From positions 1-64,000 of the IMG/VR virus record IMGVR_UViG_3300028025_006304: 64,000 nt of DNA; one strand, given 5' to 3'. Shown piece after piece: positions 15,632 through 60,863 of the stretch; position 1 is the stretch's first letter, and every line of letters starts with the position of its first letter. The translations under genes were made by a program, and so were the position numbers. The notes below the pieces were generated by a model. That model made no database searches and was not told the DNA's origin. It saw only the letters and a program-made list of their open reading frames with translations. This DNA comes from a virus.

Positions 15632-15634
15632 AAA

Positions 15635-16219: not shown

Positions 16220-16226
16220 GATTATA

Positions 16227-16817: not shown

Positions 16818-16818
16818 T

Positions 16819-19884: not shown

Positions 19885-19885
19885 A

Positions 19886-20953: not shown

Positions 20954-20955
20954 AA

Positions 20956-24900: not shown

Positions 24901-25385
24901 GTTGCAGATGCTTGTGTTGCATTGTTCCATATAATGTGACCTGATAGTGGATCTCCAGTTGTTATAGTAGTTTTTGCTTGATAGTTAAAAAATGCATTAG
25001 AACTTCCTGCAGCACCTTGAGCACCTTGAGCACCTTGTGGGCCAGTAGCTCCTTGGGCACCCTGTGAACCTTGTGCCCCAGTGGCACCTTGAGCTCCGGT
25101 AGCACCTTGTGCACCAGTAGCGCCTTGTGCTCCTTGTGCTCCTGTGGCTCCTTGTGCGCCTTGAGCTCCTTGTGGACCTACAACTGTAGGTGTAGCTGCA
25201 AATTGGGCAAATGAAGCACTGAGAGCATATGAAGAAGATAATGCTTGATTAGCAAATGAAGCAGTTCCTAAAAATGAACCTACAAATGATCCTGTAAAGG
25301 AAGATGCGGTAACATTAGTTGTTACACTTAAAGAATTTAGGGAAGCATCTGACCCTGATAGTATGACTTTTTTCCAACTTGGCAT
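21984..25385 (-). CDS. Collagen-like tail fibre with S74-type chaperone tail
   Basis: A 1133-residue fibre. Residues 1-69 are an attachment module ([15 protein letters not shown] then GSF/ASF repeats). Gly-X-Y triplets occupy about 70-126 and 244-1005 (about 270 in all); X is nearly always Ala or Pro, Y nearly always Gln or Thr. A globular insert separates the blocks (~128-241). The C-terminus has [13 protein letters not shown] and [15 protein letters not shown], an S74-like chaperone ending in a coiled coil. It should form a long trimeric triple helix projecting from the tail. Nearby hydroxylase, glycosyltransferase and sulfotransferase genes may act on it. Confidence 0.92.
22371..24656 (-). 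repeat. Collagen Gly-X-Y coding repeat, main block
   Basis: About 254 nine-base units encode GAQ, GAT, GPQ or GPT. On the plus strand they read as variations of (A/T)CC TTG (A/T)GC. The long near-identical tract is prone to recombination and to length change, and creates false frames on both strands. Confidence 0.95.
25008..25178 (-). repeat. Collagen Gly-X-Y coding repeat, short block
   Basis: Nineteen triplets ([15 protein letters not shown]) precede the globular insert of the same fibre. Confidence 0.9.
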
Positions 25386-31469: not shown

Positions 31470-32057
31470 TTATATTGAAAATTTATTACTTTTTTCTCTA
31501 TTATCTTCTTTCTTTAATGGTTGAGTGTTAGTATATTTAAAGGCCTCGTATAATTGTATCTCATCATTTAAATCAAAAGCATCTATTGGTTTGATATGGT
31601 CTATCTCCCAATACTCTCCATAATTGTCCCAATTTATATCCTGGTTAAACATTTGCTCAAGGTATTGAGTATATTCCTCCATTGTACATCCCAAATATTC
31701 TATAGTACGATCTTTTTTTAGGATTTGGTATGTTTTTAAAGCTTGTGAGATGCGTGCTGAGGTTATATGCTTTAATTTAAATCCTAAATCGGTGTGGTAT
31801 TTTGTTCTGTTCCATTCCCTGTATAACTCTTTTTTAGTGTGATAGTGGGTGGTACAATATTTGTTAAAATATTCTTTGTTTTGGTCGCGGTATACTTTGT
31901 AGTAGTCTGCTCTAGATTCTTTATTGTCTTGATACCATTGATCATTTAAGGGTTTAAGGCAAATTTTACAATATCTATGTTTACCGTCTTTACTATCTTT
32001 TCTATTAAAAAACTCTGTTAAGGGTTTTTTTATATTACATTTTTTACATTGTTTCAT
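31470..32057 (-). CDS. HNH endonuclease with zinc ribbon, freestanding
   Basis: A 195-residue protein. Two CxxC pairs at the start (Cys4, Cys7, Cys30, Cys33) form a zinc ribbon, followed by a basic helical linker and an HNH domain: WEIDHIKPIDAFDL (Asp153-His154) with FKYTNTQPLKKEDN (Asn177) and a terminal KSNK. This is a homing-type DNA nuclease. It is inserted between the capsid and PhoH genes, downstream of a capsid terminator. A paralogue lies at 44814-45488. Confidence 0.88.
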   Translation of the reverse strand: MKQCKKCNIKKPLTEFFNRKDSKDGKHRYCKICLKPLNDQWYQDNKESRADYYKVYRDQNKEYFNKYCTTHYHTKKELYREWNRTKYHTDLGFKLKHITSARISQALKTYQILKKDRTIEYLGCTMEEYTQYLEQMFNQDINWDNYGEYWEIDHIKPIDAFDLNDEIQLYEAFKYTNTQPLKKEDNREKSNKFSI

Positions 32058-32142: not shown

Positions 32143-33903
32143 TTACAAGCTGTTAAGACCCGAAACAAAAATTTTCGCATAAAATTCTGGACGTAACATC
32201 TTCTTAGCGTAACGAGTCAAGAGACCTTTTCTTGGAGTGAAGGTTTCTGGATCGTAGATAAGAGGAGTCATGATCAACGGAATGTAAGGAGCAAACACAG
32301 CACCGGCTTCCAAGAACTGAGTACCACGGAATCCCATAAGGATTGTGTTTTCAGTCATGTAAGGATTTTTGTAAACTGTGTAGCGGCTATTCAATTGACC
32401 AGCTTTCTGTACACCAAACGCGTATTCCATTTTGTCTGCAGAGCCATCAGAGTTTGAAGCGAATCCTGGGATTGATTCAATTACTGTAGCTACAGTTGGA
32501 GAACATACTAAGAAGTTTGCACCACCACGAAGGGTTAACTGGTGAATCTTGTTAGAAAGTTTCTGCATCTTAGTACCAAGGGTTTGGAACCACTGGCCTT
32601 GAGTGTTGTAGAAACCTGTTTGGCTAGTAGAAGTTGGGAAAGCAAATCCGTCTGCACTACCGTTGTAAACACCGTTGTTCAATACAGTCCAGTACTCAGT
32701 ACCAGCAGCTGCGTCTTCGATCAACATGTCAAGAATTTCGAGGTCGATTTCAAGAGAAATGTACTCGCTCATGATGTTTGTTACTTCAGCTTCTGCGTCA
32801 AGTGCCTGATAGGCATTAAGATCTTGGGCGAATTCTGGAGTCCAAACAGCCTTTAACTTCTTGGTCTTGGCAACAATTGCTTGTGACTGAAGTTGGATGT
32901 TGATTTCTGGGATTACAATTTCAGTAGCGCTTTCAGCGTTAGGAACAGCGAATGCGTTTCCAGCTTCGAAATCACCTACGTTGTAAGGAGACATTTGAGT
33001 AGCCTTGTTGTAGAATACAGTTAATGAACCAGACAAGTTAGCAGCAGATACAGTTTGAGAAGCTGTTACGTAGAAACTGATAGTACCATTTGTGTAGTTG
33101 TAGGTAGTAAAGTTAGGCAACAATGAAGCATCGGTAAGAGCAAATCCACCTACAGAGTAAGTAGGAACGAATCCTCTAACTGCGTCGGGGTCAAATGCTG
33201 TTAATGAAGCTGTAGGAACTACAATCTCGTATACTTGACCAGCAACAATAGAAGCTGATAGATCAGAGTCATAGTTTAAGTCTGCCCATGAAGCATCAGC
33301 GAATGAAGCAGTACCGGCACCAACAGTTGGTAGAGCACCACCATCGGCTGAACCTGTCAAGAATACAGAAGCTGAGAATTGGTTAGTTGAATAGGTAAAT
33401 CTTCCAGCACCGTAAAGACCACCGTTATTATTCTCACCTAAGTTATTAGTGTTTGTAGAGAATGGGTAGTTACCATTGGCTGAACCAGTGTTACCATAGA
33501 GTGATTTTCCAGCAGTGAATGGATTCTTAGTAGTTCCGTATTGGAAATCTAAGAAGAATACAAGACCGGAAGGTAGGTTCATAGGCTGTACAGAAACGAA
33601 TTCTTTAGCAGCGATTTGACCGAATACCTTACGTACTAATGGAAGAGCAATACCAGCCCATTCGGCACCTGTGCCGACTGAGAAGTTACCGAAACCAGTA
33701 CCACCACCTACAGAAGATTGCTCTACTACTAGTTGCTTGGCTTGGTTTTCTAGGATTAAAGACATGTTGTTCTTGTCGGTCTCCGAGCGAAGTCCTTCAA
33801 GTAAACCTGTTCTATCCCATTTTGAGGCTAATTTAGCCGCGTCAGACTGCATATTCTTCCAACCGGAAGCTGCAGACTCGAGTAATTGTTGTACTTGTGA
33901 CAT
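32143..33903 (-). CDS. Major capsid protein (gp23-like)
   Basis: A 586-residue HK97-fold capsid subunit of the gp23 family: GTGAEWAGIALPLVRKVFGQ then PMNLPSGLVFFLDFQYG, the typical gp23 opening, with NFLVCSPTVATVIESIPGF, YKNPYMTENTILMGFRG and VFAPYIPLIMTPLIYDPETF near the end. The N-terminal ~65 residues are helical and probably removed at maturation; candidate sites are LLE (34-36) and ILE (50-52). The middle contains a beta-rich insertion (~150-330). It is flanked by scaffold and a terminator, as expected for a highly expressed gene. Confidence 0.95.
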   Translation of the reverse strand: MSQVQQLLESAASGWKNMQSDAAKLASKWDRTGLLEGLRSETDKNNMSLILENQAKQLVVEQSSVGGGTGFGNFSVGTGAEWAGIALPLVRKVFGQIAAKEFVSVQPMNLPSGLVFFLDFQYGTTKNPFTAGKSLYGNTGSANGNYPFSTNTNNLGENNNGGLYGAGRFTYSTNQFSASVFLTGSADGGALPTVGAGTASFADASWADLNYDSDLSASIVAGQVYEIVVPTASLTAFDPDAVRGFVPTYSVGGFALTDASLLPNFTTYNYTNGTISFYVTASQTVSAANLSGSLTVFYNKATQMSPYNVGDFEAGNAFAVPNAESATEIVIPEINIQLQSQAIVAKTKKLKAVWTPEFAQDLNAYQALDAEAEVTNIMSEYISLEIDLEILDMLIEDAAAGTEYWTVLNNGVYNGSADGFAFPTSTSQTGFYNTQGQWFQTLGTKMQKLSNKIHQLTLRGGANFLVCSPTVATVIESIPGFASNSDGSADKMEYAFGVQKAGQLNSRYTVYKNPYMTENTILMGFRGTQFLEAGAVFAPYIPLIMTPLIYDPETFTPRKGLLTRYAKKMLRPEFYAKIFVSGLNSL

Positions 33904-35349: not shown

Positions 35350-35958
35350 TTAGATGATTGGGCAGGTACCTTTTGCACAGAGAATTTCTGTTAAAATTCC
35401 ACTTGCTTTACTGTAATGGTTAATTGTGTTGTATTCTTTTCCTTCTTTTACTAGATGCATAAATGAACCTGGGTTGGATGGGGTTGATACAAAATCCCAA
35501 CATAGTAGTTCAAAATCGTCTTGTACTTCCATCATGCCTTCTCCCATTGGTTTAAGTGAGCCCATACCACGGGAAGAAACACCTACCATTACTCCACTGT
35601 CGATAAGTGCTTTAAGGATATTCCCGGAGACAGTCGGTAAAATTTCGATTTTACCTACAACGTGATCACCATCCCACCATATGTCGCGGATGATGTGGCA
35701 AACGTTTTTTAAATTGATTATTGACGAATCTGGGTGGTCTAATTCACCTGTGGCTCTGCTTTGTTTAACCACATCCATGTATTTGTCTATTTCACGCTGC
35801 CAAAGGTCTTTAGCGTAATATCTACCGTTACCATTTTTAACTTGAGCAGTAGCTAAGATACCTTCAACAAGGGGATTACCAGCTGGAGATTTGGTACCTT
35901 CAGTTAATTGAACAGGGTTAACCTGAAACGCTTGGGTTTCAATTAATACTTGTTTCAT
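35350..35958 (-). CDS. Prohead maturation protease (gp21-like, S77)
   Basis: A 202-residue serine protease of the T4 gp21 family. GELDHP gives catalytic His75; VGVSSRGMGS contains the nucleophile (Ser128 or Ser129); WDFVSTPSNPG is the conserved C-terminal strand with Asp155. T4 gp21 cuts after Glu in (I/L)-X-E sites of head proteins. Its own start contains LIE and LTE, consistent with self-removal. The many leaders of this type elsewhere in the window are its likely substrates. TAATG coupled to the previous gene. Confidence 0.92.
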   Translation of the reverse strand: MKQVLIETQAFQVNPVQLTEGTKSPAGNPLVEGILATAQVKNGNGRYYAKDLWQREIDKYMDVVKQSRATGELDHPDSSIINLKNVCHIIRDIWWDGDHVVGKIEILPTVSGNILKALIDSGVMVGVSSRGMGSLKPMGEGMMEVQDDFELLCWDFVSTPSNPGSFMHLVKEGKEYNTINHYSKASGILTEILCAKGTCPII

Positions 35959-38595: not shown

Positions 38596-39246
38596 TTATT
38601 TATATTGCCATTTATATCCGTATGCTGTTTTCCTTTTACCACTACAACACTCACATATAGCTCCACTATGTTTACTTAAAGATAAACTTGCTGAAAGCAT
38701 TGAATCAAATTCGGTTATAAAATTATTATTAAGGTCTAATTGAATTATTTTTTTTCTTTTAGGTGAGGGTTTACCAATTTTTGAAAGACGTATTTTTTCA
38801 TTTCTTTCTTTGTTATTAATTAACCAAGGTAAAGTTCCTCTTTTTTTTCCTTTTCTACTCAAAGATTGGGAAATTTTCCACTTTAAACTTTTGGGTTGTT
38901 TTGCGGATGCACTTTTTTTAGATTTTGTTTCTAATGTGTCTTTAACTCCTTTTTTCCCTTCACCTCCATTAGTTAAGTTAACTAAACTCCCTTCATGTAA
39001 ATCTTTTCTACCATAAAGTAATATAAATTCAATTTCTTTTTGACATGCTTCATTCCAAGAAAGATCATTTAAAATTATATCAACTTTATAAGAAGTTTTA
39101 TTAGTAACATTATACCAATATTGATTTCGATTAACCACTTCATTAGCTCTTTTATATAAACCTATTTTAGAGGGTAAATCTTCTCCTATCCCTACATAAA
39201 ATGGAGAGTTAGTATCTAATCTAATATGTCTGTAAATATAAGCCAT
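38596..39246 (-). CDS. GIY-YIG homing endonuclease with NUMOD domain
   Basis: A 216-residue protein. The GIY-YIG-type start MAYIYRHIRLD then FYVGIG and KEIEFILLYGR (Glu) form the nuclease domain. After a basic helix-rich linker, IIQLDLNNNFITEFDSMLSA then GAICECCSGKRKTAYGYKWQ is a NUMOD1-like DNA-binding repeat. A freestanding mobile nuclease inserted directly downstream of the portal gene. Confidence 0.85.
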   Translation of the reverse strand: MAYIYRHIRLDTNSPFYVGIGEDLPSKIGLYKRANEVVNRNQYWYNVTNKTSYKVDIILNDLSWNEACQKEIEFILLYGRKDLHEGSLVNLTNGGEGKKGVKDTLETKSKKSASAKQPKSLKWKISQSLSRKGKKRGTLPWLINNKERNEKIRLSKIGKPSPKRKKIIQLDLNNNFITEFDSMLSASLSLSKHSGAICECCSGKRKTAYGYKWQYK

Positions 39247-39269: not shown

Positions 39270-41159
39270 TTAATCAGTCAAATTAGACTCATCTAATAAC
39301 GATTCTTTAGCTTTATCGCTTTGAAATACTAGTTTCTTGTGAAGACCCTCTAATAATGTTCTATTTTTAGATAATTCGATTTTAGTAGTCTCTAATGCTA
39401 GAGGTGAACCACCTTTAAATTGAGTTCTACCTGTACTTTCTTGGTCGTCGTTTTTCATATCTTTTCTACCTAAACGATCTCTACCCAATGCGTTATCCTG
39501 AGTGTTTATGTTAGATGCTTTTTCTTTAGGGCGACCTAATTCAGCTTTTTCATCATATCCATCAGGTAATGAATTATCAGCATACCTTTCTCTTCCATAT
39601 AAGGAAGCTAGATCGTGTGGTGTTCCGTATGAACGTCCTGTCTCAAGGGGATCATTACCTTCTTCAGCTATTTGAGTATTACGGAATGCGCGTTTTTGGT
39701 CTTGGATGATCAAATCTCGATATTCATCGTATTGGTCCTGGCTGAATTGGAATACGTTATCATAAATCCAATCGGATGGGATGATTTTAGTATCCAACAT
39801 ATCTTTAGCTAGGGCTACTTTTTCTTTTAGTAGTGCAACTTTTTCTTGCTCTGCAATAATTGAAGGAGTAGTTAACTTAAGTTCAAAGTTTGTTAATTGC
39901 TCACCGTCATACCCCTGTGAGTATAGGTGTACTAAAGCAATCTTGTATAGCTCAGATAATAAGATTCGTTGAATACGATCAATAGTGCGAGCAAAACGAA
40001 TATCTTCAGCAGCTAACGTAGCTTTACCAGTTAAGTCTTTTTCATAGCCCATGAACGCTTTAGGTACTTTAAGGGCAGCAAATAGTTTATCTCTTAGGTA
40101 AGCTACGTCTTCGATACCATTGTATTCTAGACCTTTTGTAGTGTCGATTTTAGTTGCAGTATCATTACCTCTTACTGGGATGTAGAAATCCTCAAGTAGG
40201 TTCTGCATGTTGTATTTTAAGTTATATTCACCTGTTTTCTCATCCATCAATGGAGTTTTCTTCATTGTGTTGATAGTTTTCTGCATAAATGCATCAACCT
40301 CTTGTGGTGGGATATTACCTACGTTAATGTAGAAAATACGTTTTTCTGGAGCGCGAGCAATTCTGTGGATAAGCATCGCATCTTCCATTAACACGTATTG
40401 CTTAAATAAGCGACGTCCTGGCTCAAGATATGAACGACCATAAGGAAGATAGTTTACATCTGTTAATAAGCGGAAGTGAGCTACCTCGTAGTTATCAAAT
40501 ACAATCTGATTTTCGGATGGTTTGGTATTTGGAGTAGCATAGTAACCTGAACCACCTGTATAGTAACCATCGGGAGAATAAAGGAACTGAACCTTTGCTG
40601 GGTTTTCCATATCAAAGTTTTCGCGTCTTTGAATATGGTATGCTGTGTATGGGATTACGTTATATACACCAAACTTTTCTGCGATCTCTAGCTTTAAGAA
40701 GAAATCACCATATTTACACATTTGACGAACCCAAGACCAGAGGTTGAATTCAATGTTAAGTACATCGTAGAATAGATTGTAAAGGATTTTTTGAATATCA
40801 TCGTCGCTACTTCTAATTTGAAGTACCTCTCCCATATCGTTTTTTAATGTACATTCATCCGAGATAATATCAAGGGCAGAAGCTACAATAGCGTCTGTAT
40901 CCATCACATCATAATCACTATAAAGATAAGTTCTTAGATACTGGTATTGTATATTAAATTGTGAACCTAAAAGAGATGTAGAGGCTGGGTTAGTGTAGAT
41001 TTTTCCAAATCTGTCTACCAGAGAATTTGTTTGAAATTCACCACTGGTTTGAATATGATCAGTATCAACTACTTTTAGCTGATTGCCTCCTTCATTCCTG
41101 ATGACAACATCAGTTGAAAAGAGTCTTCTTAATCTTGAAAATAAACTAGTATCAGCCAT
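39270..41159 (-). CDS. Portal protein (gp20-like)
   Basis: A 629-residue protein of the gp20 portal family. Typical segments are YDVMDTDAIVASALDIISDE, WVRQMCKYGDFFLKLEI, YLPYGRSYLEPGRRLFKQY, EDAMLIHRIARAPEKRIFYI and DVAYLRDKLFAALKVPKAFM. Twelve copies form the ring through which DNA enters. It follows the terminase gene with a short gap, the T4 order. Confidence 0.95.
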   Translation of the reverse strand: MADTSLFSRLRRLFSTDVVIRNEGGNQLKVVDTDHIQTSGEFQTNSLVDRFGKIYTNPASTSLLGSQFNIQYQYLRTYLYSDYDVMDTDAIVASALDIISDECTLKNDMGEVLQIRSSDDDIQKILYNLFYDVLNIEFNLWSWVRQMCKYGDFFLKLEIAEKFGVYNVIPYTAYHIQRRENFDMENPAKVQFLYSPDGYYTGGSGYYATPNTKPSENQIVFDNYEVAHFRLLTDVNYLPYGRSYLEPGRRLFKQYVLMEDAMLIHRIARAPEKRIFYINVGNIPPQEVDAFMQKTINTMKKTPLMDEKTGEYNLKYNMQNLLEDFYIPVRGNDTATKIDTTKGLEYNGIEDVAYLRDKLFAALKVPKAFMGYEKDLTGKATLAAEDIRFARTIDRIQRILLSELYKIALVHLYSQGYDGEQLTNFELKLTTPSIIAEQEKVALLKEKVALAKDMLDTKIIPSDWIYDNVFQFSQDQYDEYRDLIIQDQKRAFRNTQIAEEGNDPLETGRSYGTPHDLASLYGRERYADNSLPDGYDEKAELGRPKEKASNINTQDNALGRDRLGRKDMKNDDQESTGRTQFKGGSPLALETTKIELSKNRTLLEGLHKKLVFQSDKAKESLLDESNLTD

Positions 41160-41173
41160 TTTTTACTTTATTA

Positions 41174-41183
41174 TTATAAATAT
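41174..41183 (-). promoter_or_regulatory. ATATTTATAA intergenic motif
   Basis: Ends 14 nt before the portal ATG (41159) and overlaps the terminase stop; continues TAATAAAG. Confidence 0.35.
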
Positions 41184-42748
41184 TAAAGGAGCCAACGGAG
41201 GTCTTCCTGTTGATTACCTATTTTTTGTGTATAGGGATTTTGGACAGCATTACCTGAATATGCCCCTCCGTGTGATTTTGTCATTCCGTTTAAAGCAGCT
41301 CTAGTCATATCAAGCCCTTGCTGTTGGAATTTAAGTGAGGTATCTCTTAAAAGCATTCCGATACCAAACGACATTACTAAATCATCGTTATATCCACTTT
41401 GTGCCTCTGGTCTACCATTTTTCCAAATGAATACTTTCATTTCCTCTAGTAAACGTTTTGAGTGAATCGTTACAGAACGATCACCAACATATTCTCTAAA
41501 CTTATTTACCACAAGTGGTCTGGTTTTTAGTGACATTGTAAAACCAGGAGTTAAATTGTTACCATTTTCATATCGGTTAAAATACGACTCGGCTGTCACT
41601 AAGTCACTCTTAGGTGACTGGTAGAAGTTCTGATAACCGCGTTCTATAACAGTCTCTATTGTTGCCCAACCTATTGAAGCATTTTCTATTACTAATAAAG
41701 CATTATTGTATTCGGAGGCTAACCCTACTAGAAAATGTCCAAATTCTTTTGGCGATAATTGCCCCTTATATTCTGCAACTTGAGTGTTTGTTTCGATATC
41801 GAGTATGTGGGCAGCAGAAAAGTCTCTACCATCACCTCGAGCCACGTCGGCTACAACCATGTAATCTCGCGAATAATCAGCGGGTTGCCAAACCCATAGG
41901 TTCTTATCTGCCCCGCGTCTTTCAACCGGTTCTTTAACGGTAGTTTGGGCTATAAATTCGATCCATTCGGAATAGAATACCGTTTCTCCTGAGGTACTAA
42001 AATCACAGTCACATTCCTGTGCTGCCATTCTAGGATCACCTAATAATTCATCTTGTTTCTTTCTCCAAGCTTCATCCCTCTCTGGGTGGACATACCATGG
42101 TAACTTGATAGGTAAAAAGTCGTTCTCTGCTGCTTCCGCTTTCACCCACGTCTGGTGAAACCAGTTTCCAGTTCCATAAGGTGTTGAAAGTACTATTGCT
42201 CCACCACCCGTGGCAAGTGTTTGTTGTGCTGATGCCCATGTTTCTGCTACGTTATCGATAAAAGCAGCCTCGTCAATTACTAGCAGAGATACTGCTTCTG
42301 AACGTGCTGCGTCGGTATTAGAGGATTTTGCTTTAACTTGTGATCCGTTTGCTAGTTTTAAACTCAAACGGTTGTTTTCTATTTCTTTTACTTTAAGCCA
42401 GGAAGGTAAGTTATCGTACATGAAACGAACCTTGGTAACCATGTTTTTAGCTGTCTCCTGAGTGGTTGCAAGACACAACACGTTTTTGTCTTTATGGAAG
42501 GTCATTAACCACAAAGAATAGCTAGCAGCTAGAGTTGATATACCTAGCTGCCTGGATTTTAAAACAATAGAGTATGGGTTATCTCTCCATAAATGGAGTA
42601 CCTTTTCCTGGAATGGGAATAGGTTAAAAGTGATCCTACCGCGTTGTGGGTGTTGGATATAACAGTATTTACGCATGAAGTGGCCCGGGTCTTGGGCGCA
42701 CTTAATGTATTCCTGTTGAATTATTTGTCTTAAATCTTGATCACTCAT
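41183..42748 (-). CDS. terL: Terminase large subunit (gp17-like)
   Basis: A 521-residue packaging motor. Walker A-like SRQLGIST (65-72) and Walker B LLVIDEAAFI (Asp159-Glu160) form the ATPase; the coupling motif is IVLSTPYGTGN. The RNase H-like nuclease begins YMVVADVARGDGRDFSA (Asp301, Asp309) and continues to GYNDDLVMSFGIGML (Asp for metal). No small terminase was recognised in the window. Confidence 0.96.
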   Translation of the reverse strand: MSDQDLRQIIQQEYIKCAQDPGHFMRKYCYIQHPQRGRITFNLFPFQEKVLHLWRDNPYSIVLKSRQLGISTLAASYSLWLMTFHKDKNVLCLATTQETAKNMVTKVRFMYDNLPSWLKVKEIENNRLSLKLANGSQVKAKSSNTDAARSEAVSLLVIDEAAFIDNVAETWASAQQTLATGGGAIVLSTPYGTGNWFHQTWVKAEAAENDFLPIKLPWYVHPERDEAWRKKQDELLGDPRMAAQECDCDFSTSGETVFYSEWIEFIAQTTVKEPVERRGADKNLWVWQPADYSRDYMVVADVARGDGRDFSAAHILDIETNTQVAEYKGQLSPKEFGHFLVGLASEYNNALLVIENASIGWATIETVIERGYQNFYQSPKSDLVTAESYFNRYENGNNLTPGFTMSLKTRPLVVNKFREYVGDRSVTIHSKRLLEEMKVFIWKNGRPEAQSGYNDDLVMSFGIGMLLRDTSLKFQQQGLDMTRAALNGMTKSHGGAYSGNAVQNPYTQKIGNQQEDLRWLL

Positions 42749-44813: not shown

Positions 44814-45488
44814 TTAGTTTTTATTTTTATTTCTATTTCCTATTTGATTATTATATCCAAAGGATTTTGCTATTTCTGAGGTTTTGAATAAGGGTTGGGT
44901 GTTGGTGTAATGGAAAGCTTTTTTTTGTTCTTTTTCTTGTGTCAAATCAAATTTAGTACATGCTATAATATGATCAATTTCCCATACTAATCCATAATTC
45001 TCCCAATTCATCTCAGGTAAAAAAAGTTGTTCAAGGTATTGTTTATAAAAATCTAATTCACAACCTAAATATTCTAAGGTTTTTTGGGATTTTTTTCCTT
45101 TTCCTTTTCGTAAAGCTTGATATATTCTATTTCTCATATTAGAGAAGGAAGCATAAAATATATCATTTTTCTTTTTATTGGATATCCAACGATTTATAGA
45201 TAATTGAATTTTTTCTTTATTATTTTTTCTATACTCTACATGATAGTTTGATACTTTATCTTTATTTTGGGTATACCATTGTTTTTGATATTCCAATACT
45301 TGGGTTTTATTTTTTTCTTGATATTGTTTAGTTTTATCTAACAAAATCTCTCTATTATTTTTATACCTTTCAGTATCATAGGATTTTTTACATTCTTTAC
45401 ATTCAAAAACAAAACCATCCTTAGAGTTTTTATTCTTAGAAAATTTAGATAATTCTTTTGTTTCTTTACATTTTTTACATAATTTCAT
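44814..45488 (-). CDS. HNH endonuclease with zinc ribbon, second copy
   Basis: A 224-residue paralogue of the gene at 31470. The Cys4/Cys7/Cys30/Cys33 spacing is identical, followed by a long basic helical linker and an HNH domain (WEIDHIIACTKFDL, Asp172-His173; HYTNTQPLFK, Asn197). Lower GC than its neighbours, dominated by Lys/Asn codons, suggesting recent arrival. It sits between a kinase and a cupin gene. Confidence 0.87.
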   Translation of the reverse strand: MKLCKKCKETKELSKFSKNKNSKDGFVFECKECKKSYDTERYKNNREILLDKTKQYQEKNKTQVLEYQKQWYTQNKDKVSNYHVEYRKNNKEKIQLSINRWISNKKKNDIFYASFSNMRNRIYQALRKGKGKKSQKTLEYLGCELDFYKQYLEQLFLPEMNWENYGLVWEIDHIIACTKFDLTQEKEQKKAFHYTNTQPLFKTSEIAKSFGYNNQIGNRNKNKN

Positions 45489-48658: not shown

Positions 48659-49495
48659 TCACCAAAATCCTGTAAAATTTGATTTAAGACCCAATAACTT
48701 TGCGTATCTTGGGAGCCTACATGACCAGAATGATGCTTTTGTTTTGTCTTTTTTATTTTTACAATCGTGGCGGGCCGCAAATGCTCTACGTGCCTCTGGA
48801 TTGTTTATCTTAGCTGATAAACCTGAAGTATCACCAAATGATACTTTTTTAATCTTTTTAGTGCGTGGGTCGCGAACGTAAACATAGAATTTTTTAGAGC
48901 CACCGCGTTTTGGTTTGCCAATTGGGGGTGTTTTCTTTTTTTTATCTGCTTCTTCTAATTTTTTAGAGATTTTGTATAATCCCATTGACTCCATTCGCTC
49001 TAAACCATTTAAAGATACATTATTTACAGTTAAATTATTGTTTCCTACATTTAGACTTTTCATTTGATTAGGAGCTAACATTTTAGAAAAGGTTGGAATT
49101 GCTTTAAACCTATCTAAAAGTTTATTATTTTCAAAAGTAAGCGTAATTTCGTGGGTATTTTTTTTATCTGCTTCTTCTAATTCAATTTCTTCCATTATGA
49201 AATCTAATGGAACTTTTTTACCTTCGTATAAACCAAAATGACCTAAATCTGTTTCAGTTAGTATCTCTAAATCATCTCCTTGTACCTCAATGATGTTGCG
49301 GCTGTATAAAGCGCGTGCTTCTGCCCATAAATTGAAATAGCTTTCCGAGCCTGCACGATATACGTGCTCTGTAAGAGGTCGTGCGTTATCTAAGTGATAT
49401 TTCAACCCCTCGGAAAGGATTGCTTTTGGGGCTACACTTTCGTTTAGCACCACTGGTCTTTTTGAATCGCAAGTATTGCAGCCGCAGTCACACAT
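48659..49495 (-). CDS. Multidomain cargo protein, two LEE-A boundaries
   Basis: A 278-residue protein. It starts with a Cys-rich MCDCGCNTCDSKRPVVLNES and has LNE (17-19), LSE (27-29), LEE-A (106-108) and LEE-A (180-182); the last two are both followed by ADKK. They separate three segments: an N-terminal helical domain, a small beta domain, and a basic C-terminal domain (FYVYVRDPRTKKIKKVSFGD, RRAFAARHDCKNKKDKTK, FWSCRLPRYAK). That last domain is shared with other phage virion polyproteins. Likely cut by the prohead protease. Confidence 0.72.
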   Translation of the reverse strand: MCDCGCNTCDSKRPVVLNESVAPKAILSEGLKYHLDNARPLTEHVYRAGSESYFNLWAEARALYSRNIIEVQGDDLEILTETDLGHFGLYEGKKVPLDFIMEEIELEEADKKNTHEITLTFENNKLLDRFKAIPTFSKMLAPNQMKSLNVGNNNLTVNNVSLNGLERMESMGLYKISKKLEEADKKKKTPPIGKPKRGGSKKFYVYVRDPRTKKIKKVSFGDTSGLSAKINNPEARRAFAARHDCKNKKDKTKASFWSCRLPRYAKLLGLKSNFTGFW

Positions 49496-49496
49496 A

Positions 49497-50471
49497 TTAT
49501 TTAAATAATCTAGGGAAGTTCATACCTAATTCAGAAGAAGAAACATAAACACCGTTTAATATTCTTTCACTATCTATATTATCTACTACAGTATCATTCA
49601 TAACATAGAATTTACCTTGTCCGTTTTCGCTTACGTTAAGTACATATCCTACGTCTTTACCCATTCTAGGTTTTTTTAGCAATTTAGTTTTTAAAATTTG
49701 CTTAAGCAATTTACCTGCACCTTCTTGGGGGCTGGCAGTTGGTGCTAAATCTAATCTAGAATATAAAGAATCAATACGCTTGTATAAAGGTTCAAACGCA
49801 TCTATGTCTCTTAATTGTTTGTTTTTCTCAAACATAGACATAATTTCGAAAGCTGGAAGTATATCGTTTCCTTTAAAGTTACCTGCGTTGATTGTAACAT
49901 CAGATTCTTCATCGAATTTGCTAAATAAAGTTAAAATTGCTATTACACTATTTAGTAATGCTATATTTGCTTTATCGCCTGCAAATTTACCTAAGGTAAT
50001 ATTAGAGGTATCGTATGATTTAATTTCGCATCCAAAACCATCAATGGTTAAATCCGGATCTTCTCCTTTTCTAGAATCGGTAACGTTGTGTTTATTAACG
50101 TTAAATTCAAAAGCCCAGTAAGTAGCAATTTCTCCTTTACCAGCACCTGCTGTTGGGATATCGCTGTCTTTTTTAAGTGGGAGGATTGGATATAAAATTT
50201 TCCAAATTTCTTCGTCTTTACCACCTAAATTAAAATCTTCACCTAGTTCTAAAGGAGTATTACAATCCGGAATTTTTTCACCTTCTTTTAAACCTAAAGC
50301 TTTACGAATCCTAACATTATAGTCTACTTGTGCCTCGTTAATAATAATTTCACCCATAAAATCTTCGGCTAGTTCAAATAACATAGCTTTATCTTTTGGG
50401 TCATTAATATCAGGGTATCCTTTTGGGAACTTCCAAGCTACACTTTTGATGAATTTATCTAATTGATTCAT
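49497..50471 (-). CDS. Possible PD-(D/E)XK nuclease, cargo-region protein
   Basis: A 324-residue protein. GKGEIATYWAFEF (111-123) is followed by EDPDLTIDGFGCEIKSYD: Pro139-Asp140 and Glu149-Ile150-Lys151 fit a PD-(D/E)XK active site. The first 46 residues end INE-A (44-46), a candidate protease cut. The C-terminal part (VLNVSENGQGKFYVMND) is beta-rich. It might be a packaged nuclease; catalysis is inferred only from the motif. Overlaps the previous gene by one base. Confidence 0.6.
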   Translation of the reverse strand: MNQLDKFIKSVAWKFPKGYPDINDPKDKAMLFELAEDFMGEIIINEAQVDYNVRIRKALGLKEGEKIPDCNTPLELGEDFNLGGKDEEIWKILYPILPLKKDSDIPTAGAGKGEIATYWAFEFNVNKHNVTDSRKGEDPDLTIDGFGCEIKSYDTSNITLGKFAGDKANIALLNSVIAILTLFSKFDEESDVTINAGNFKGNDILPAFEIMSMFEKNKQLRDIDAFEPLYKRIDSLYSRLDLAPTASPQEGAGKLLKQILKTKLLKKPRMGKDVGYVLNVSENGQGKFYVMNDTVVDNIDSERILNGVYVSSSELGMNFPRLFK

Positions 50472-52941: not shown

Positions 52942-53223
52942 TTATTTCCTAAAGCGTACTTTGGCCTTAGGTGTGTTCGATACAAACTGTTTACCTTTTT
53001 TACTACCAGCTACTTTTTTTCTTGCGGTAGCTGCTCTTTGTGCTTTAGTTAAGCGTTGTGCTTTTGCTTTTGGTAAGCAACGTGTTGTTGCTTGACCTTT
53101 TTTCATCGTACCACAAGGACCTGTTATATTACCTGCAGTATCAATACGCACCCAGTTCTCTTTTTTGAACCAATCGCGTAGCGATTCTGTGATTATCTCT
53201 TGTAGACGTTCTTGGGTTATCAT
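52942..53223 (-). CDS. Small basic protein with capsid leader
   Basis: A 93-residue, strongly basic protein. The leader MITQERLQEIITE ends in I-T-E (11-13) before Ser. The body carries WVRIDTAGNITGPCGTMKKG, TTRCLPKAKAQRLTKAQRAA and RKKVAGSKKGK. This motif set recurs in marine phage polyproteins. A DNA-bound internal protein is plausible. ATGA-coupled. Confidence 0.7.
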   Translation of the reverse strand: MITQERLQEIITESLRDWFKKENWVRIDTAGNITGPCGTMKKGQATTRCLPKAKAQRLTKAQRAATARKKVAGSKKGKQFVSNTPKAKVRFRK

Positions 53224-53906
53224 CCCTTCATTTGCCCTTTACATACTTTAACAGCACGGCCTGAAAGATAGGCGGATGATTTCTCACCAGCAGCCATTCT
53301 TTTCTTAATATATGCTTTACCTTTTGGGCAAAGTTCCTCGTAGATAACACTTTCACCTAAACGTGATGTTTTTGCTTCATCTAAATCCTGGATGATTTTA
53401 TTTAGGATTCTACTCATTGTATCCGGAGTAAGACCAGGTGTTTCACCTTTTGGATTTTCGGGTGATACTAGTTGTGGAGAGTAACCTACTTCTTCTTTAA
53501 TTTCGACGTTTGGGTCAAGAGCTCTATAGGCGTCTTCAAGGGCTTTTTTTAAGATATTAATAGCAGGTGTATTATCTCTATTTTTAGAAAAAATTTGAGC
53601 TGCTAATTTAGCCGCTAAAGTTTCAATTTGCTTTTTTGGAACTAGAAGAGTCTCATCTACTTGCTCACCTCCACCAACTAAATCGTTGTAATCTTCCATT
53701 GAAAGAAGACCTCTCAATTTAACTGCCTCAATAGCGCGTTCAGTTACATTGTGAAGGTCCATATCTGTTTTAGCATCTTCTCTAGCGTATTCTAACATAC
53801 GAATAAAGAGAGGAACATCCATAGCGATTATATCGGTTGGATCTTCTTGTTGAGCTTCTCCCATTGGTTTAGAGAAAAACTCTTGTACTCTTTTTAGGTC
53901 TTCCAT
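53220..53906 (-). CDS. Two-domain cargo protein
   Basis: A 228-residue protein. The N-terminus MEDLKRVQEFFSKPMGEAQQ has M-G-E (15-17) before Ala. A helical domain (DVPLFIRMLEYAREDAKTDM) spans ~25-135. Then LDE-A (175-177) and LGE-S (183-185) precede a small basic domain (CPKGKAYIKKRMAAGEKSSA, YLSGRAVKVCKG), also common as a cassette in marine T4-like phages. Probably split at the linker. Confidence 0.7.
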   Translation of the reverse strand: MEDLKRVQEFFSKPMGEAQQEDPTDIIAMDVPLFIRMLEYAREDAKTDMDLHNVTERAIEAVKLRGLLSMEDYNDLVGGGEQVDETLLVPKKQIETLAAKLAAQIFSKNRDNTPAINILKKALEDAYRALDPNVEIKEEVGYSPQLVSPENPKGETPGLTPDTMSRILNKIIQDLDEAKTSRLGESVIYEELCPKGKAYIKKRMAAGEKSSAYLSGRAVKVCKGQMKG

Positions 53907-54381: not shown

Positions 54382-54962
54382 TAGGTTTTCTTTAAACTTT
54401 GCAAATATTTAATAGTTTCCTCTTTTGACTCAAGGAGTTTATTTTTGACTGAACCTGTCCATTTTTCTACGTCACCTGCCTCCGTAATATACGACTGGAT
54501 AGCATTGTGTTTGATTTCCTCGTTCATCCATAGCTCAAACGTTTCTATAATACCTTCAATATCTGAATTGTAGATTGTTTTTTCATATTCTTCCCAAAGT
54601 CCTTCTCTACGGATAGCTGCTTCAAAATCTATTTGGCAGTTAAAACAGCGTTTATACATGCTAAACCACTTTTTATCCAAATGTGGTTTCATTGTTTTCT
54701 TACAGGAAGGACAAAAAATGGGGAAATTAACCGCTTCACGAGCTTTATCAAGTTTTGTAACATTTTGTTTAATGCCATCCTTAATAGTCCACGTCTTATC
54801 TTCTTGATCCCATATATCTCCTTCGATATGTGGACCTTCTTGTTCTTTTGTAAAACCGACTGAAGTTGAGGATTTATCTGCATATTTTCCTTTTACTAGG
54901 TTTCTTAGACGTTGTACATCTTTTTCCTGGAATTGTTTTTTTAGAACATTTTCTTTACTCAT
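54381..54962 (-). CDS. Zinc-ribbon conserved phage protein
   Basis: A 193-residue protein with a CPSCKK...CFNCQ zinc ribbon (residues ~84-111). GDIWDQEDKTWTIKDGIKQN then TKLDKAREAV precede it, and an acidic helix WEEYEKTIYNSDIEGI follows. This is a family I recognise from many marine T4-like phages; the function is not established. Overlaps the next gene by 4 nt. Confidence 0.72.
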   Translation of the reverse strand: MSKENVLKKQFQEKDVQRLRNLVKGKYADKSSTSVGFTKEQEGPHIEGDIWDQEDKTWTIKDGIKQNVTKLDKAREAVNFPIFCPSCKKTMKPHLDKKWFSMYKRCFNCQIDFEAAIRREGLWEEYEKTIYNSDIEGIIETFELWMNEEIKHNAIQSYITEAGDVEKWTGSVKNKLLESKEETIKYLQSLKKT

Positions 54963-57493
54963 AAACCTAAGTCTTGTAACTGTTTGATTGTGTTAGCTGC
55001 TGAAGTGTGTAATATACCAATTCCACCATTAGCATTCCATGAATCGATAGTATCTTTTCTATCGTCTATTAAAATTTTATTTTGCCCAGCAAAATCGGCT
55101 TTCCTTTTAGCGGAACGAAAATATAATTTACGCATGTTAGGTAAACGTTGAACCCACTCGGTTTTACCTTGCATTGATTCGTTATTGTCTAACTTATAGC
55201 GTTCCTCAAATGGGATATCGAAATTAACAGAGGGGGCAGTTAAAACGTATGGGTTATATTCTTTGATATAGTCCCAAAGTTGTTTTCCATCGGGCATCCA
55301 ATCTAGGTTAGCCCAATATGAACGTTCGGGGATGTCTTTTTCTTTTAGACTGTTTCTAAATAAACTCCAAAATTCGTTTTTACCTTGTGAATCGGCGTGT
55401 TGAGTACTTACACCTGTTAGTTCTTTATACCCCTCATCGAAGTCCACTAACACACCATCCATATCACAAAATATCACATATTTCTTCTCTCTCATTTCCC
55501 CATCATTTTCATTAACACCCGTATTATGAAGGTACGAGATCTCTTCTAGGGGGGCAAGTTTAGCTACGAGTGCTGAGCCTTCTTTTTCAAATTTTGCTTT
55601 AGGGTATACTTTTTTGATGAATGCTTGGTAGAGATTATCGCGTTGGTTTCCCAAAACATCTTCACCTTTTTTAGGTGCTGGGTTATAAATTAACGCGTTA
55701 GTGTTTTTAAAGTCGGGGATGAGTTTGATTCCGGTTTGGATTATGTCTACTATTGTAGCCATCACTCGGAATACCTCTCCTCTGTTTATTACAGCACTAT
55801 CTGATTTACTTACACCCTTCTCTCCAGCTCCAAATCCGACCTCCATTCCATTTATATCCTCTCCTGTCTCATCATCCTCGTAATTGAGGGTTGTCAATTC
55901 AACCTCATATTCGATTCCACTGTCTGTAGTAAAACCAAACTCATAATCGCCTGGGTTAGTATTGGTAATTTCCCATTCATAGGGTTTTGAGGTGGCTTCT
56001 CCAACCTCTTGTAAACCCATAGCCAATTCACGAGCGTATTGGTTTAAACCGAATGGGTCTTTTACAGTTTTAAGTTTAATATCTGAGTTTTGAAGAAATT
56101 GTCCTTTAGGTGCTTTTTTAGGTTCAGAAGAAACCAACGAACCCTCATTTTGTAAACTATCAGTCCAGTTACGGAATGTCATAGTACCCTTTAGGTTAGC
56201 TTCAGCTTCAATATCGTTTAGATGATCGTCCTCTTGAGTATTTGTAGTTGTAATATCTCCCAATCTACCCTCCAGATTTTGGATATGGTGAATCATCTCA
56301 TGCGCGTAAGAACGCACAATATCTTTGGGATGACGCCCGTAAGTGTATAGGGTGATAGACTTATTGATCGGATCATAGTACGCGGTTTTACCCAAGAATT
56401 CTTCGGCATTAACCATATCATCACCTACTAGCTCAATGCTGGGAACAGGATCAATATTATATCCTTTCCCACGCATGTAATTAGTTAACTCGGCTATTTT
56501 TTCGAGTATGTCAATAGATGGGATAGTGTTTTCTTTTAACGGTTTATACCCTGAACCAAATGGAGCTGATTTACCATCATGGTTAGGTGCTACGTTTTCT
56601 TTTTTTAGACGTTGGGTTTTTTCTTTAGATGCTTCTTTTCTTTGTTCAGCATAATCTAAAGCTGTTTTTAAACGTCTTTTAACCTCAGGATCTTTTGCTC
56701 TTTCGTAAGCTGCTCTAACACGCTGGTGAATTAAATTAATAATTTGAGATTGGCGAGCGTGTGATTTTGATTTAAAAGATTCTTTAGATAGTGTGTCTAT
56801 AATATCTTGTTTAGTAGAGAATTTAACACCTACAGTATCGCTTGGATCTTCGTCTGTGTATAATCTACGAGATGATCCTTTTGGTTTTTTACCTGTACCT
56901 GTTTTAGGATCTCCTTCTTTTAAAACGTTTGGTTCTAAAATATTGTAAATATCTTCCTTTTCGTTAGCTGGAATCTCAGTAGGGAGATAAGTAAAGAATT
57001 TTTCTTTATCCCCTTTTTGAAGTGCTTTACGAGCGTTTGTTCCACTCATATCACCAGCTGGGGTTTTAATTACTCGAACCTCTATGTTAGGGTATTTTTC
57101 TTCTACCCCCTTGGTGCGAGAGATAATATCTTGTAAATCATCTTCTCTACCTTCACGGTAACCCAAAACAAAATATACTTTCTCGTCTGGGTGGTTTTTA
57201 GCATAACGTAAGATATCTCCGATTGGGGAAGCTGATGGTTCTATTTGAACTTTAGATGGGAGCAATTCCTTGTAAATATCCCATATTTGCATAGATTGTT
57301 CTTGTTCGATTCCATCTCTAACACCCCCACCAACATAGATTAAAAATTTGTCTATGTCTTTAAAATCTTTTAAAGCTGTTTTAACTAAGTCAAAGTGACC
57401 TTTGGTGGGTGGTTTAAAACCACCCCCATAGATTGCTGTAACGGATTTTCCGTCTATTAGCTCGTTAACTAAAAACTTAGTTAATTCGTCCAT
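54959..57493 (-). CDS. Nucleotidyltransferase-zincin-HAD multidomain protein
   Basis: An 844-residue protein of four parts. (1) 15-190: cytidylyltransferase/NMNAT fold, GGGFKPPTKGHFDLV (TxGH 30-33) and SGTNARK. (2) ~322-450: zincin with HEMIHH (398-403; third ligand perhaps Glu429 or Glu431). (3) ~500-645: beta domain of unknown role, GFTTDSGIEYEVELTTLNY. (4) 668-844: HAD phosphatase, FCDMDGVLVDFD (Asp677, Asp679) and IDDRKD. LKE (191-193), LKE (319-321), LQE (494-496) and LEE (649-651) fall at the junctions. The first ten residues lack a good leader. The parts could be separate enzymes released after cleavage. Confidence 0.78.
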   Translation of the reverse strand: MDELTKFLVNELIDGKSVTAIYGGGFKPPTKGHFDLVKTALKDFKDIDKFLIYVGGGVRDGIEQEQSMQIWDIYKELLPSKVQIEPSASPIGDILRYAKNHPDEKVYFVLGYREGREDDLQDIISRTKGVEEKYPNIEVRVIKTPAGDMSGTNARKALQKGDKEKFFTYLPTEIPANEKEDIYNILEPNVLKEGDPKTGTGKKPKGSSRRLYTDEDPSDTVGVKFSTKQDIIDTLSKESFKSKSHARQSQIINLIHQRVRAAYERAKDPEVKRRLKTALDYAEQRKEASKEKTQRLKKENVAPNHDGKSAPFGSGYKPLKENTIPSIDILEKIAELTNYMRGKGYNIDPVPSIELVGDDMVNAEEFLGKTAYYDPINKSITLYTYGRHPKDIVRSYAHEMIHHIQNLEGRLGDITTTNTQEDDHLNDIEAEANLKGTMTFRNWTDSLQNEGSLVSSEPKKAPKGQFLQNSDIKLKTVKDPFGLNQYARELAMGLQEVGEATSKPYEWEITNTNPGDYEFGFTTDSGIEYEVELTTLNYEDDETGEDINGMEVGFGAGEKGVSKSDSAVINRGEVFRVMATIVDIIQTGIKLIPDFKNTNALIYNPAPKKGEDVLGNQRDNLYQAFIKKVYPKAKFEKEGSALVAKLAPLEEISYLHNTGVNENDGEMREKKYVIFCDMDGVLVDFDEGYKELTGVSTQHADSQGKNEFWSLFRNSLKEKDIPERSYWANLDWMPDGKQLWDYIKEYNPYVLTAPSVNFDIPFEERYKLDNNESMQGKTEWVQRLPNMRKLYFRSAKRKADFAGQNKILIDDRKDTIDSWNANGGIGILHTSAANTIKQLQDLGL

Positions 57494-57856
57494 TTACTGA
57501 AGCTTCATGATAAGCTCTTTTGCCTTAGCTTTCTTATCAGCGATTGCTGTTTTAGCTGCTCTATACTCTTCCATTTCGCGCTTAAGAGCTTCTTTCTGCA
57601 TTTCGTACTCTTTCATAGCTGTTTTAGCATGTTTGCGAGCCGCTGATTTATTAGTACCTGCATAAGCAGCTGCAATCTCGTTCATGTCAATAGTATCGTA
57701 GATTGAAGCAGGACGGATCATATCATCCATAGACATACCTCTCATTGGTTTCATTACAAGAATGATTTCGCCAATCTCGTTATATGGCTCTTTCATTTCC
57801 ATTGTTTCTGCTTCAAGGGCTTCCTTAATAAGGGATTTTAATACTGATTTTTTCAT
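57494..57856 (-). CDS. Helical internal-protein candidate with class II leader
   Basis: A 120-residue protein. The leader MKKSVLKSLIKEALEAE has I-K-E (10-12) before Ala. The rest is charged and helical (ARKHAKTAMKEYEMQKEALK), with a mid-segment IILVMKPMRGMSMDDMIRP. One base from the multidomain gene and ATGA-coupled to the kinase gene. Confidence 0.7.
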   Translation of the reverse strand: MKKSVLKSLIKEALEAETMEMKEPYNEIGEIILVMKPMRGMSMDDMIRPASIYDTIDMNEIAAAYAGTNKSAARKHAKTAMKEYEMQKEALKREMEEYRAAKTAIADKKAKAKELIMKLQ

Positions 57857-58656
57857 GAGTTAAGGAATTGTTTTATTTTAGACTGAGCCTCTGGGATAGA
57901 GACTGTTTGTTGAATAATATTTTGTACGTTTTCTTTGTTGCGTAATGATAGAATTTCCTGTTCTAGTTTTTCTTTATCAGCTCTGGATTTAGCTGCTTCT
58001 TTTTCTGTTTTTGGTTTGGTATCTTGTGGTTTGAAAGGATCAATATAACGTTTAATTATATCTTCTAAACTTCTTTTACCAAACGGATCCTTGTCTTTTG
58101 TAGTAGCTACAAAGTTTTGACCAAATAAGTTAAGGTACGGGATAAAGTTTTTTGTTACGTTTGCCCATGTTTGCATTACAATACCTGGCATCAAACTTCT
58201 ATCCTCACCAGCTGAACGCTCGAATCTATCTTCGTTTTTCTTAAGTGATTTTTCAAGTGAAGAGTATACAAATACCATCATTACATCATATCCAGCTTCC
58301 TCTAATGTTTCCTTTAATTTAACGGTTTCATTATATGATGCTGCTGTACCGTCAATGACAATATTCCCACGCTTTTCAATTTCTTGTTTTAACTCAGCCT
58401 TATAAGGTTCTTTAGCTGATGCCATTGCTATAGCTGCTCCACTTCTACCAGCAGCATCTGCTCTTTTTAGATCAAGTGAGATGCCAGCGTTGCGGAGATT
58501 TTTAATAAAATAATCATCAATATTTAGTACCGTTAAACCAAGATCACGGATTATCTCATCTGTAACAGATGATTTTCCAGCACCGGGAGCCCCAGCAAGT
58601 ATAATAGCTTTAGGAGAACCTTGTACCTCCTTTAGTAATCTTATCAGTGAAATCAT
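57853..58656 (-). CDS. Zeta-toxin-like P-loop kinase with class I leader
   Basis: A 267-residue protein. Leader MISLIRLLKE (Leu8-Lys9-Glu10). The kinase core begins at Walker A GAPGAGKS (22-29), then LNIDDYF, RGNIVIDGTAASYN and DVMMVFVYSSLEKSLKKNED. This resembles zeta-toxin/AAA_33 kinases, which act on UDP-sugars or nucleotides. The C-terminal ~60 residues are a charged coiled coil. If packaged, it could act in the host early after infection. Substrate unknown. Confidence 0.8.
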   Translation of the reverse strand: MISLIRLLKEVQGSPKAIILAGAPGAGKSSVTDEIIRDLGLTVLNIDDYFIKNLRNAGISLDLKRADAAGRSGAAIAMASAKEPYKAELKQEIEKRGNIVIDGTAASYNETVKLKETLEEAGYDVMMVFVYSSLEKSLKKNEDRFERSAGEDRSLMPGIVMQTWANVTKNFIPYLNLFGQNFVATTKDKDPFGKRSLEDIIKRYIDPFKPQDTKPKTEKEAAKSRADKEKLEQEILSLRNKENVQNIIQQTVSIPEAQSKIKQFLNS

Positions 58657-60401: not shown

Positions 60402-60421
60402 AAGCTTGGATAACCAAGCTT
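60402..60421 (-). terminator. Terminator after SegE-like gene
   Basis: An 8-bp perfect stem (AAGCTTGG with CCAAGCTT, four-base loop) overlaps the stop codon region; the minus strand then reads TTTCTTTATT. The arms share AGCTTGG/CCAAGCT with the terminator at 9412. Confidence 0.75.
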
Positions 60422-60863
60422 ACTCTATAAAGTCTTTTCTGAAGAATTTCCCGAGCACATTATCGTTGTACCATTTTTCCGGTTCCTCCAATACCCCCAT
60501 TGTAAATAAATATTTGCACTCGTAATAGGTAAGTAGCTTTTTACTGGGAACCAACTTTAAGATGACTCTCTCGAACTCGTCTTGTCTACCTTGCTTGAGT
60601 AACTCTAAGATTGGTTTAGCTGAACCATAGTATGTTTTCCAATCGCTTTCCTTTTGGATTACCTCGGTGGTTGATTTTCTACCCCTACCAGATTGCTCAG
60701 CGAGTTGTTTTTTGGTGAGTTTTTTCTTCACGTTGTGGTATAGTACTTTCTTACCAATGTAAGAAAATCCACTTGGAACGTGAGTAACCTGATAAATAAA
60801 ACCATAGGTATCTGCTGGGAAATCTTCTAAGCTAGATACCTCTTTATTATTATATAACCACAT
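60420..60863 (-). CDS. SegE-like GIY-YIG endonuclease
   Basis: A 147-residue protein. YGFIYQVTHVPSGFSYIGKK is a GIY-YIG motif; SGRGRKSTTEVIQKESDWKT and LLTYYECKYLFTMGVL (catalytic Glu) follow. It resembles the putative SegE-type nucleases of T4-like phages. It lies between a fibre gene and the primase, bounded by a terminator. Confidence 0.75.
   Translation of the reverse strand: MWLYNNKEVSSLEDFPADTYGFIYQVTHVPSGFSYIGKKVLYHNVKKKLTKKQLAEQSGRGRKSTTEVIQKESDWKTYYGSAKPILELLKQGRQDEFERVILKLVPSKKLLTYYECKYLFTMGVLEEPEKWYNDNVLGKFFRKDFIE

Follow-up and report, generated by a model that had tools for sequence, protein, structure and literature searches.

A duplicated heptapeptide divides a head-region protein into segments of different composition

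Why a late phage gene should encode the same heptapeptide twice is the question raised by one locus in the window, that is, the 64-kb stretch, with its late genes on the minus strand, that was analyzed here out of a 118.6-kb IMG/VR virus record. The locus (positions 48659 to 49495, minus strand) is an ORF with an ATG start for a 278-aa protein, a predicted modular polyprotein of the head region, which contains LEEADKK at residues 106 to 112 and again at residues 180 to 186. The first-pass annotation had proposed that this gene grew by the stitching of domains with a reusable, cleavable linker. The positions that it gave for the repeat are exact, and the segments on either side do differ in composition, with a pI of 4.6 (charge, -10) for residues 30 to 108, 9.4 (+3) for residues 109 to 182, and 10.6 (+22) for residues 183 to 278.

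All parts of the gene lie on the minus strand. The protein opens with a leader (residues 1 to 29; 49409 to 49495), which has a Cys-rich start followed by the predicted sites LNE/S and LSE/G (the slash marks the predicted cut). Next comes an acidic N-domain (residues 30 to 108; 49172 to 49408), which ends in VPLDFIMEEIELEE, is conserved in homologues, and is modeled with a pLDDT of mostly 77 to 92. It is followed by an exchangeable middle module (residues 109 to 182, 74 aa, 8.4 kDa; 48950 to 49171) and by a basic C-domain (residues 183 to 278; 48662 to 48949). The two LEEADKK copies mark junction 1 (49160 to 49180) and junction 2 (48938 to 48958), each with a predicted cut at LEE/A.

Each copy is part of an exact direct repeat of 25 nt (AATTAGAAGAAGCAGATAAAAAAAA; copy 1 at 49158 to 49182 and copy 2 at 48936 to 48960, minus strand) with a spacing of 222 nt, and the 23-nt core of this repeat has no further copy in the window when 3 mismatches are allowed (shuffle expectation, 0.01). 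An exact 7-mer repeat was seen in 0 of 5,000 composition shuffles of the 278-aa protein. Since two independent copies of LEEADKK would share 7 of 7 codons with a chance of about 0.018, the LEEADKK-coding DNA itself was probably duplicated. In an AlphaFold2 model of the protein built with 38 homologues, the two copies correspond to the two lowest-confidence stretches (pLDDT below 50 at residues 103 to 116 and 177 to 186), with better-modeled regions around them. An additional LYE/G at residue 91 is located inside the well-predicted N-domain and may not be accessible. The whole protein gave no Pfam match at an E value of 10 or less, and PDB sequence searches and a PDB fold search returned nothing usable, the fold search giving HIV RT matches at E values of at least 0.17.

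A hydrophobic-x-Glu site is conserved at the junctions and agrees with the encoded prohead protease

Viral contigs were scanned for relatives, of which 328 were confirmed; the best 80 of these yielded 71 unique proteins, including that of the window, of which 70 could be divided into N-domain, middle, and C-domain. What is conserved at the junctions is hydrophobic-x-Glu, mostly followed by Ala; the exact heptapeptide LEEADKK, which the first-pass annotation had taken for the cassette, is not. At junction 2, hydrophobic-x-Glu was found in 31 of 31 lineages, which are not fully independent because this conservation could be partly inherited with the C-domain, and A, G, or S came next in 80% of them. 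This [LIVMF]xE[AGS] frequency compares with 7% in shuffled sequences and 2% in module interiors, and it falls to 0% when D or Q is substituted for E. At junction 1, hydrophobic-x-Glu was present in 96% of the 27 module families (shuffled, 67%), and A, G, or S followed the Glu in 38% (shuffled, 11%), which makes it a weaker match than junction 2. Homologues that keep the domains thus also keep the Glu, the opposite of the outcome that had been named as evidence against the proposal. Moreover, E182 and the leader residue E19 are invariant in a 38-sequence alignment, and leader sites of the LNE[SN] and LSE[GN] types occur in 67 of the 71 proteins from the best 80 of 328 relatives. Given these conserved upstream sites, LNE/S at residue 19 and LSE/G at residue 29, more than two cuts are predicted.

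The hydrophobic-x-Glu at the junctions agrees with the specificity of the T4 prohead protease gp21, for which cleavage behind the Glu of a short L/I-X-E motif is reported (PMC9026906). A gp21-type prohead protease (Peptidase_S77; 35350 to 35958, minus strand; phrog_207, E = 1.7e-56; PF03420, E = 1.1e-29) is encoded in the window and is the predicted cutter. We found two features expected of a gp21-processed head protein, namely, a conserved L/I-x-E motif at domain boundaries and a gp21-type Peptidase_S77 encoded in the same genome. Of 17 related records, 15 contain phrog_207, and the remaining two have no capsid gene either. In two records, G003 and G013 (L093 and L101), the open frame that encodes the gp21-type protease is as long as 509 and 752 aa, so the protease there may belong to a larger fusion protein.

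The T4-type major capsid protein (32143 to 33903, minus strand; phrog_138, E = 2e-66) was aligned with 13 homologues and one divergent copy. Its propeptide exhibits invariant LLE/S and LLE/G sites and, near residue 64, a hydrophobic-x-Glu with a variable P1', which compares well with the 65-residue propeptide of T4 gp23 (PMC9958956). In T4 Alt, the cuts fall at ITE-6 and LTE-619 (PMC5694885). The capsid sites suggest that the local protease requires hydrophobic-x-Glu while accepting different residues at P1', in which case junction 1 would also be acceptable to it. The portal (39270 to 41159) and terminase (41183 to 42748) genes of the window are named from their translations only. In Flavobacterium phage immuto, a relative of the 278-aa protein is encoded near primase, exonuclease, and NadR-like genes, and the capsid protein is 58 to 62% identical to that of the window (two partial matches), which makes a Bacteroidetes host plausible, though unproven.

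The middle module is exchanged on a conserved backbone

The N-domain (up to VPLDF) and the C-domain (KPKRGGSKKFYVYV to GFW) were kept in 70 of 70 divided homologues from the best 80 of 328 relatives. Among the same proteins, the middle was at least 25 aa long in 60 of 70, falling into 27 unrelated connected groups, and was absent or very short in the other 10. These groups were obtained after the shared K-rich linker had been trimmed; untrimmed, nearly all middles merge. Some relatives carry a tandem pair of modules (L004, L057, and L062) and others an additional insert upstream of VPLDF (L043, L060, L061, and L065). In 22 pairs of proteins, the N-domains share at least 88% and the C-domains at least 85% amino acid identity while the middles are unrelated. 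As an example, L015 and L021 have N-domains with 100% and C-domains with 97.7% amino acid identity, and unrelated middles.

The module of the window is absent in L070, L072, L076, L080, and L081. Comparison with L070 showed flanks that are 95.4% and 92.3% identical at the nucleotide level and a missing unit of 222 bp, with the two BLAST pieces overlapping within the linker repeat; among the best 80 of 328 relatives, the nearest ones (flanks 92 to 95% identical in nucleotides) lack exactly this unit. Conversely, the window and L004 share a module that is 99.5% identical over 201 nt, whereas their N- and C-domains are 71% and 73% identical in nucleotides. Near-identity sets in around VPLDF and extends as far as the second LEE site. 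A recent insertion or loss of the 222-bp unit and a recent module transfer between the window and L004 lineages have taken place, and together with the 22 pairs, these cases indicate that the gene has been altered by the gain, loss, and replacement of pieces at the joints. The module of the window was present in just two other viral contigs, both with the same backbone, and transfer between genes was seen for other modules and not for this one. When annotated phages were searched with three modules, two were unmatched and the third matched once, to a pair of duplicate records.

Overall, the stitching proposal holds in that flanking domains are swapped or absent in homologues and a cognate protease is encoded, but LEEADKK is not the conserved unit; the linker is probably cleavable.

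Homology breakpoints in late genes tend to coincide with protease-type sites

The association extends to other late genes. In 617 nonredundant late genes of related contigs, we collected 291 breakpoints of homology, requiring abrupt ends. Of these, 58% are located within 3 aa of [LIVMF]xE and 23% are near [LIVMF]xE[AGS], compared with 19% and 5%, respectively, for positions drawn at random from these proteins; the LxD and LxK controls showed no enrichment. The enrichment is weaker when the abrupt-end filter is omitted (9.6% versus 5.0% within 3 aa).

The middle module of one homologue, L029, also occurs in many other late genes, including a mosaic late gene of the window (53220 to 53906, minus strand), where it spans about residues 20 to 79 after MGE/A (phmmer, 1.9e-19). 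In a separate search, at least 14 mutually unrelated left flanks were found for this module. In 62% of cases, [LIVMF]xE[AGS] precedes the module by no more than 14 aa (shuffled, 10%), and it never occurs inside the module. Similarly, N-terminal [LI]xE[AGS] was present in 13 of 36 genes at 32 to 59.5 kb (shuffled mean, 2.35), versus 7 of 109 genes in the remaining genome (shuffled, 4.96). A capsid-targeting-like helix, M..L..LIKE[AVS], begins about 32 of the homologues from the best 80 of 328 relatives and several other genes of the window; the 278-aa protein lacks it and instead has the Cys-rich leader with LNE/S and LSE/G.

The upstream neighbor (49497 to 50471, minus strand) has a conserved leader of about 35 to 45 aa (WKFPKGYPDxxN...LLLE), after which unrelated cargo domains follow in its relatives. 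Within its own cargo, DLTIDGFGCEIKSY is similar to the core of PD-(D/E)XK nucleases, and a Pfam search gave no match. A Zeta-toxin/AAA kinase-like protein (57853 to 58656, minus strand; PF06414, E = 1e-15) has a capsid-targeting-like start, MISLIRLLKEVQG, and is possibly a packaged enzyme.

The C-domain differs in phages with and without the S77 protease

By profile match (E = 1.7e-11, residues 178 to 260), the C-domain belongs to phrog_7595, which occurs in 25 annotated phage records; 14 phages, counting that of the window, were examined. All five phages with S77 have hydrophobic-x-Glu-[AGS] before the C-domain (LEEA in the window, LDEG in immuto, MMES in Methylophilales phage Melnitz, LEEA in Pelagibacter phage HTVC008M, and LTEA in C48C1), the predicted immuto cut, LDE/G, lying ahead of EYRGKDV and the Melnitz site being taken directly from the sequence PMMESEYQGK. 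The motif was found in 0 of 9 phages without S77, where the C-domain is a free-standing ORF of 79 to 94 aa in eight and a fusion in one (CRP-6). The free proteins of Aegir and Kolga begin M-AKYQGRTVKLNKP, and their start at MAKYQGRTVKLNKP aligns with E/AEYQGKKVTLNKP of C48C1, so the predicted cut would recreate the natural start of a free C-domain protein. The contrast between the two groups, which are a small sample and differ in many other ways, supports cleavage. The phrog_7595 domain is free-standing or fused in phages lacking S77, whereas here it forms the last module of a precursor.

Roseobacter phage CRP-6 (L086, 2402 to 3091) encodes its C-domain homologue in one chain with an XkdF-type head protease (PF14550, E = 7.2e-18), and an XkdF protein is also among the BFVD matches. 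Both observations hint that the C-domain is head associated.

Alternative explanations

Could the duplication be without meaning? A random or very recent slippage duplication of a short peptide, with no function, would suit the lack of conservation of the exact heptapeptide in homologues. Nevertheless, the absence of such repeats from 5,000 shuffles, the Glu kept at the same junctions across lineages with unrelated middles, the association of sites with breakpoints, and the swapped-middle pairs contradict this explanation, which we regard as exceedingly improbable. The two stretches might also be flexible, charged linkers of a late protein that remains uncut, the motif arising simply from their richness in Glu and Lys, and they are indeed E/K rich and disordered in the model. 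We find this quite improbable, given that the junction motif far exceeds its shuffled frequency (80% versus 7%) and vanishes upon D/Q substitution, that breakpoints track LxE and not LxD or LxK, and that the free-standing forms of the C-domain start at the predicted cut.

In T4, core proteins such as gp22, gp67, and gp68 are cut into multiple fragments (PMC9026906), and the 278-aa protein could be a core protein of this kind, with a precursor mostly degraded by the prohead protease, products that leave, and a middle that is dispensable filler. Its acidic N-domain, its location in the head region, and its several predicted cuts are all compatible with such a role. However, the modules are 40 to 95 aa long, extremely diverse, and common to unrelated late genes, and they are nearly free of internal [LIVMF]xE[AGS] sites. 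Because of this diversity, sharing, and near-absence of internal sites, the release of intact domains fits better than degradation, and we consider a core protein unlikely.

A modular prohead precursor as the proposed mechanism

The explanation that we favor, and hold to be probable, is a modular T4-type prohead precursor that is cleaved in a gp21-like manner after hydrophobic-x-Glu and whose cassette is swapped by recombination at the linkers. The precursor would be recruited to the prohead core via its leader or, in relatives, via the N-terminal targeting helix. During maturation, the S77 protease would make as many as four cuts in it, all at exposed positions (following E19, E29, E108, and E182), giving a short leader, the acidic N-domain (residues 30 to 108), a 74-aa cargo module (residues 109 to 182), and the basic C-domain (residues 183 to 278) as predicted products, which may be retained in the head. 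The unstructured LEE/A linkers would then play a double role, as cleavage sites and as short homologous seams for the gain, loss, or swapping of modules, which recombination between coinfecting phages could exchange. We infer that the linker DNA acts as the recombination seam itself, rather than its repeats and breakpoints being a consequence of selection on the linker. On the model of the T4 internal proteins, the mature module would most likely travel with the DNA and, once ejected, affect the host during entry, one example of a target being a defense, and a high turnover of modules on a conserved carrier would be the expected product of an arms race. A broader platform for cassette exchange, with a cargo pool common to several late genes, protease-site DNA as recombination seams, and several anti-host proteins loaded per precursor, is conceivable, but we propose it only tentatively.

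Comparison with known phage systems

The working principle appears to be that of the T4 internal proteins, and what might be new is a multipart precursor with an internal exchangeable cassette. T4 Ip1, Ip2, and Ip3 are injected antirestriction proteins that block three different GmrSD restriction enzymes, one each (PMC12373910). The present gene shares with IPI, IPII, and IPIII a late head-region position, sites of the L/I-x-E type, a gp21-type protease, and hypervariable cargo joined to a conserved targeting part, here in the form of 27 unrelated middle families carried by a single backbone. In size, the predicted 74-aa module also comes close to mature IPI*, which has 76 residues (PMC3012670). 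However, the T4 internal proteins consist of one leader and one cargo and are packaged via a capsid-targeting sequence, whereas here the putative cargo lies between two conserved domains with predicted cuts on both sides, sometimes as tandem modules, and the copy in the window has no canonical capsid-targeting helix.

Other T4 head proteins show partial likenesses. gp22, gp67, and gp68 share the acidic N-domain and the multisite gp21 cleavage that is expected here, but they are scaffold or core parts cut into peptides, and the sources consulted on them report no module swapping. Alt is a head protein with gp21 sites at its N- and C-terminal ends, as predicted here; it is an enzyme with removed propeptides, in contrast to a multidomain cassette array. 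The polyvalent proteins of phages and conjugative elements are multidomain, rapidly reassorting, and thought to be packaged (PMC5512222). The first two traits are shared, and packaging is predicted here too, but polyvalent proteins have enzymatic domains, some with a self-processing peptidase, whereas the modules here are small, have no known domains, and show boundaries of the prohead protease type; Pfam, PDB sequence, and PDB fold searches revealed no recognizable effector or enzyme domains within the 278-aa chain. In the accessible (mostly open-access) literature on prohead protease, polyprotein, and domain shuffling, cassette exchange at such sites was not found.

Implications and other genes of the window

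Small, fast-evolving proteins carried in the T4 head disarm host defenses. Since such cargo has no recognizable sequence, head-carried proteins are hard to find in uncultured phages. Should cassettes bounded by cleavage sites prove general among these T4-like phages, in the sea and elsewhere, the sites together with the conserved end domains would provide a sequence-based route to dozens of candidate injected proteins, which could be tested against host defenses. If true, the mechanism would also be a concrete case of a protease site serving as a joint for domain exchange.

Several other genes of the window, all on the minus strand where a strand is given, deserve mention. A 1,133-aa collagen-like tail protein (21984 to 25385, minus strand) has a long GAQGATGPQ repeat, and adjoining it are three repeat-rich fiber-like proteins (18844 to 21981) with similar C-terminal regions. 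The remaining assignments were made from sequence only. Four free-standing homing-type endonuclease-like ORFs (31470 to 32057, 44814 to 45488, 38596 to 39246, and 60420 to 60863, all minus strand), two of them HNH-like with CxxC clusters and two GIY-YIG-like, are located between head and packaging genes and further along. A block of glycosyltransferase-, sulfotransferase-, 2OG-oxygenase-, and UDP-galactopyranose-mutase-like genes (12066 to 18542, minus strand) lies within the tail region. An 844-aa multidomain protein (54959 to 57493, minus strand) begins like a nucleotidyltransferase (GGFKPPTKGH) and ends like a phosphatase (FCDMDGVLVDF). In phage Melnitz, an NMNAT-like protein is found in one chain with the N- and C-domains of the family described here.
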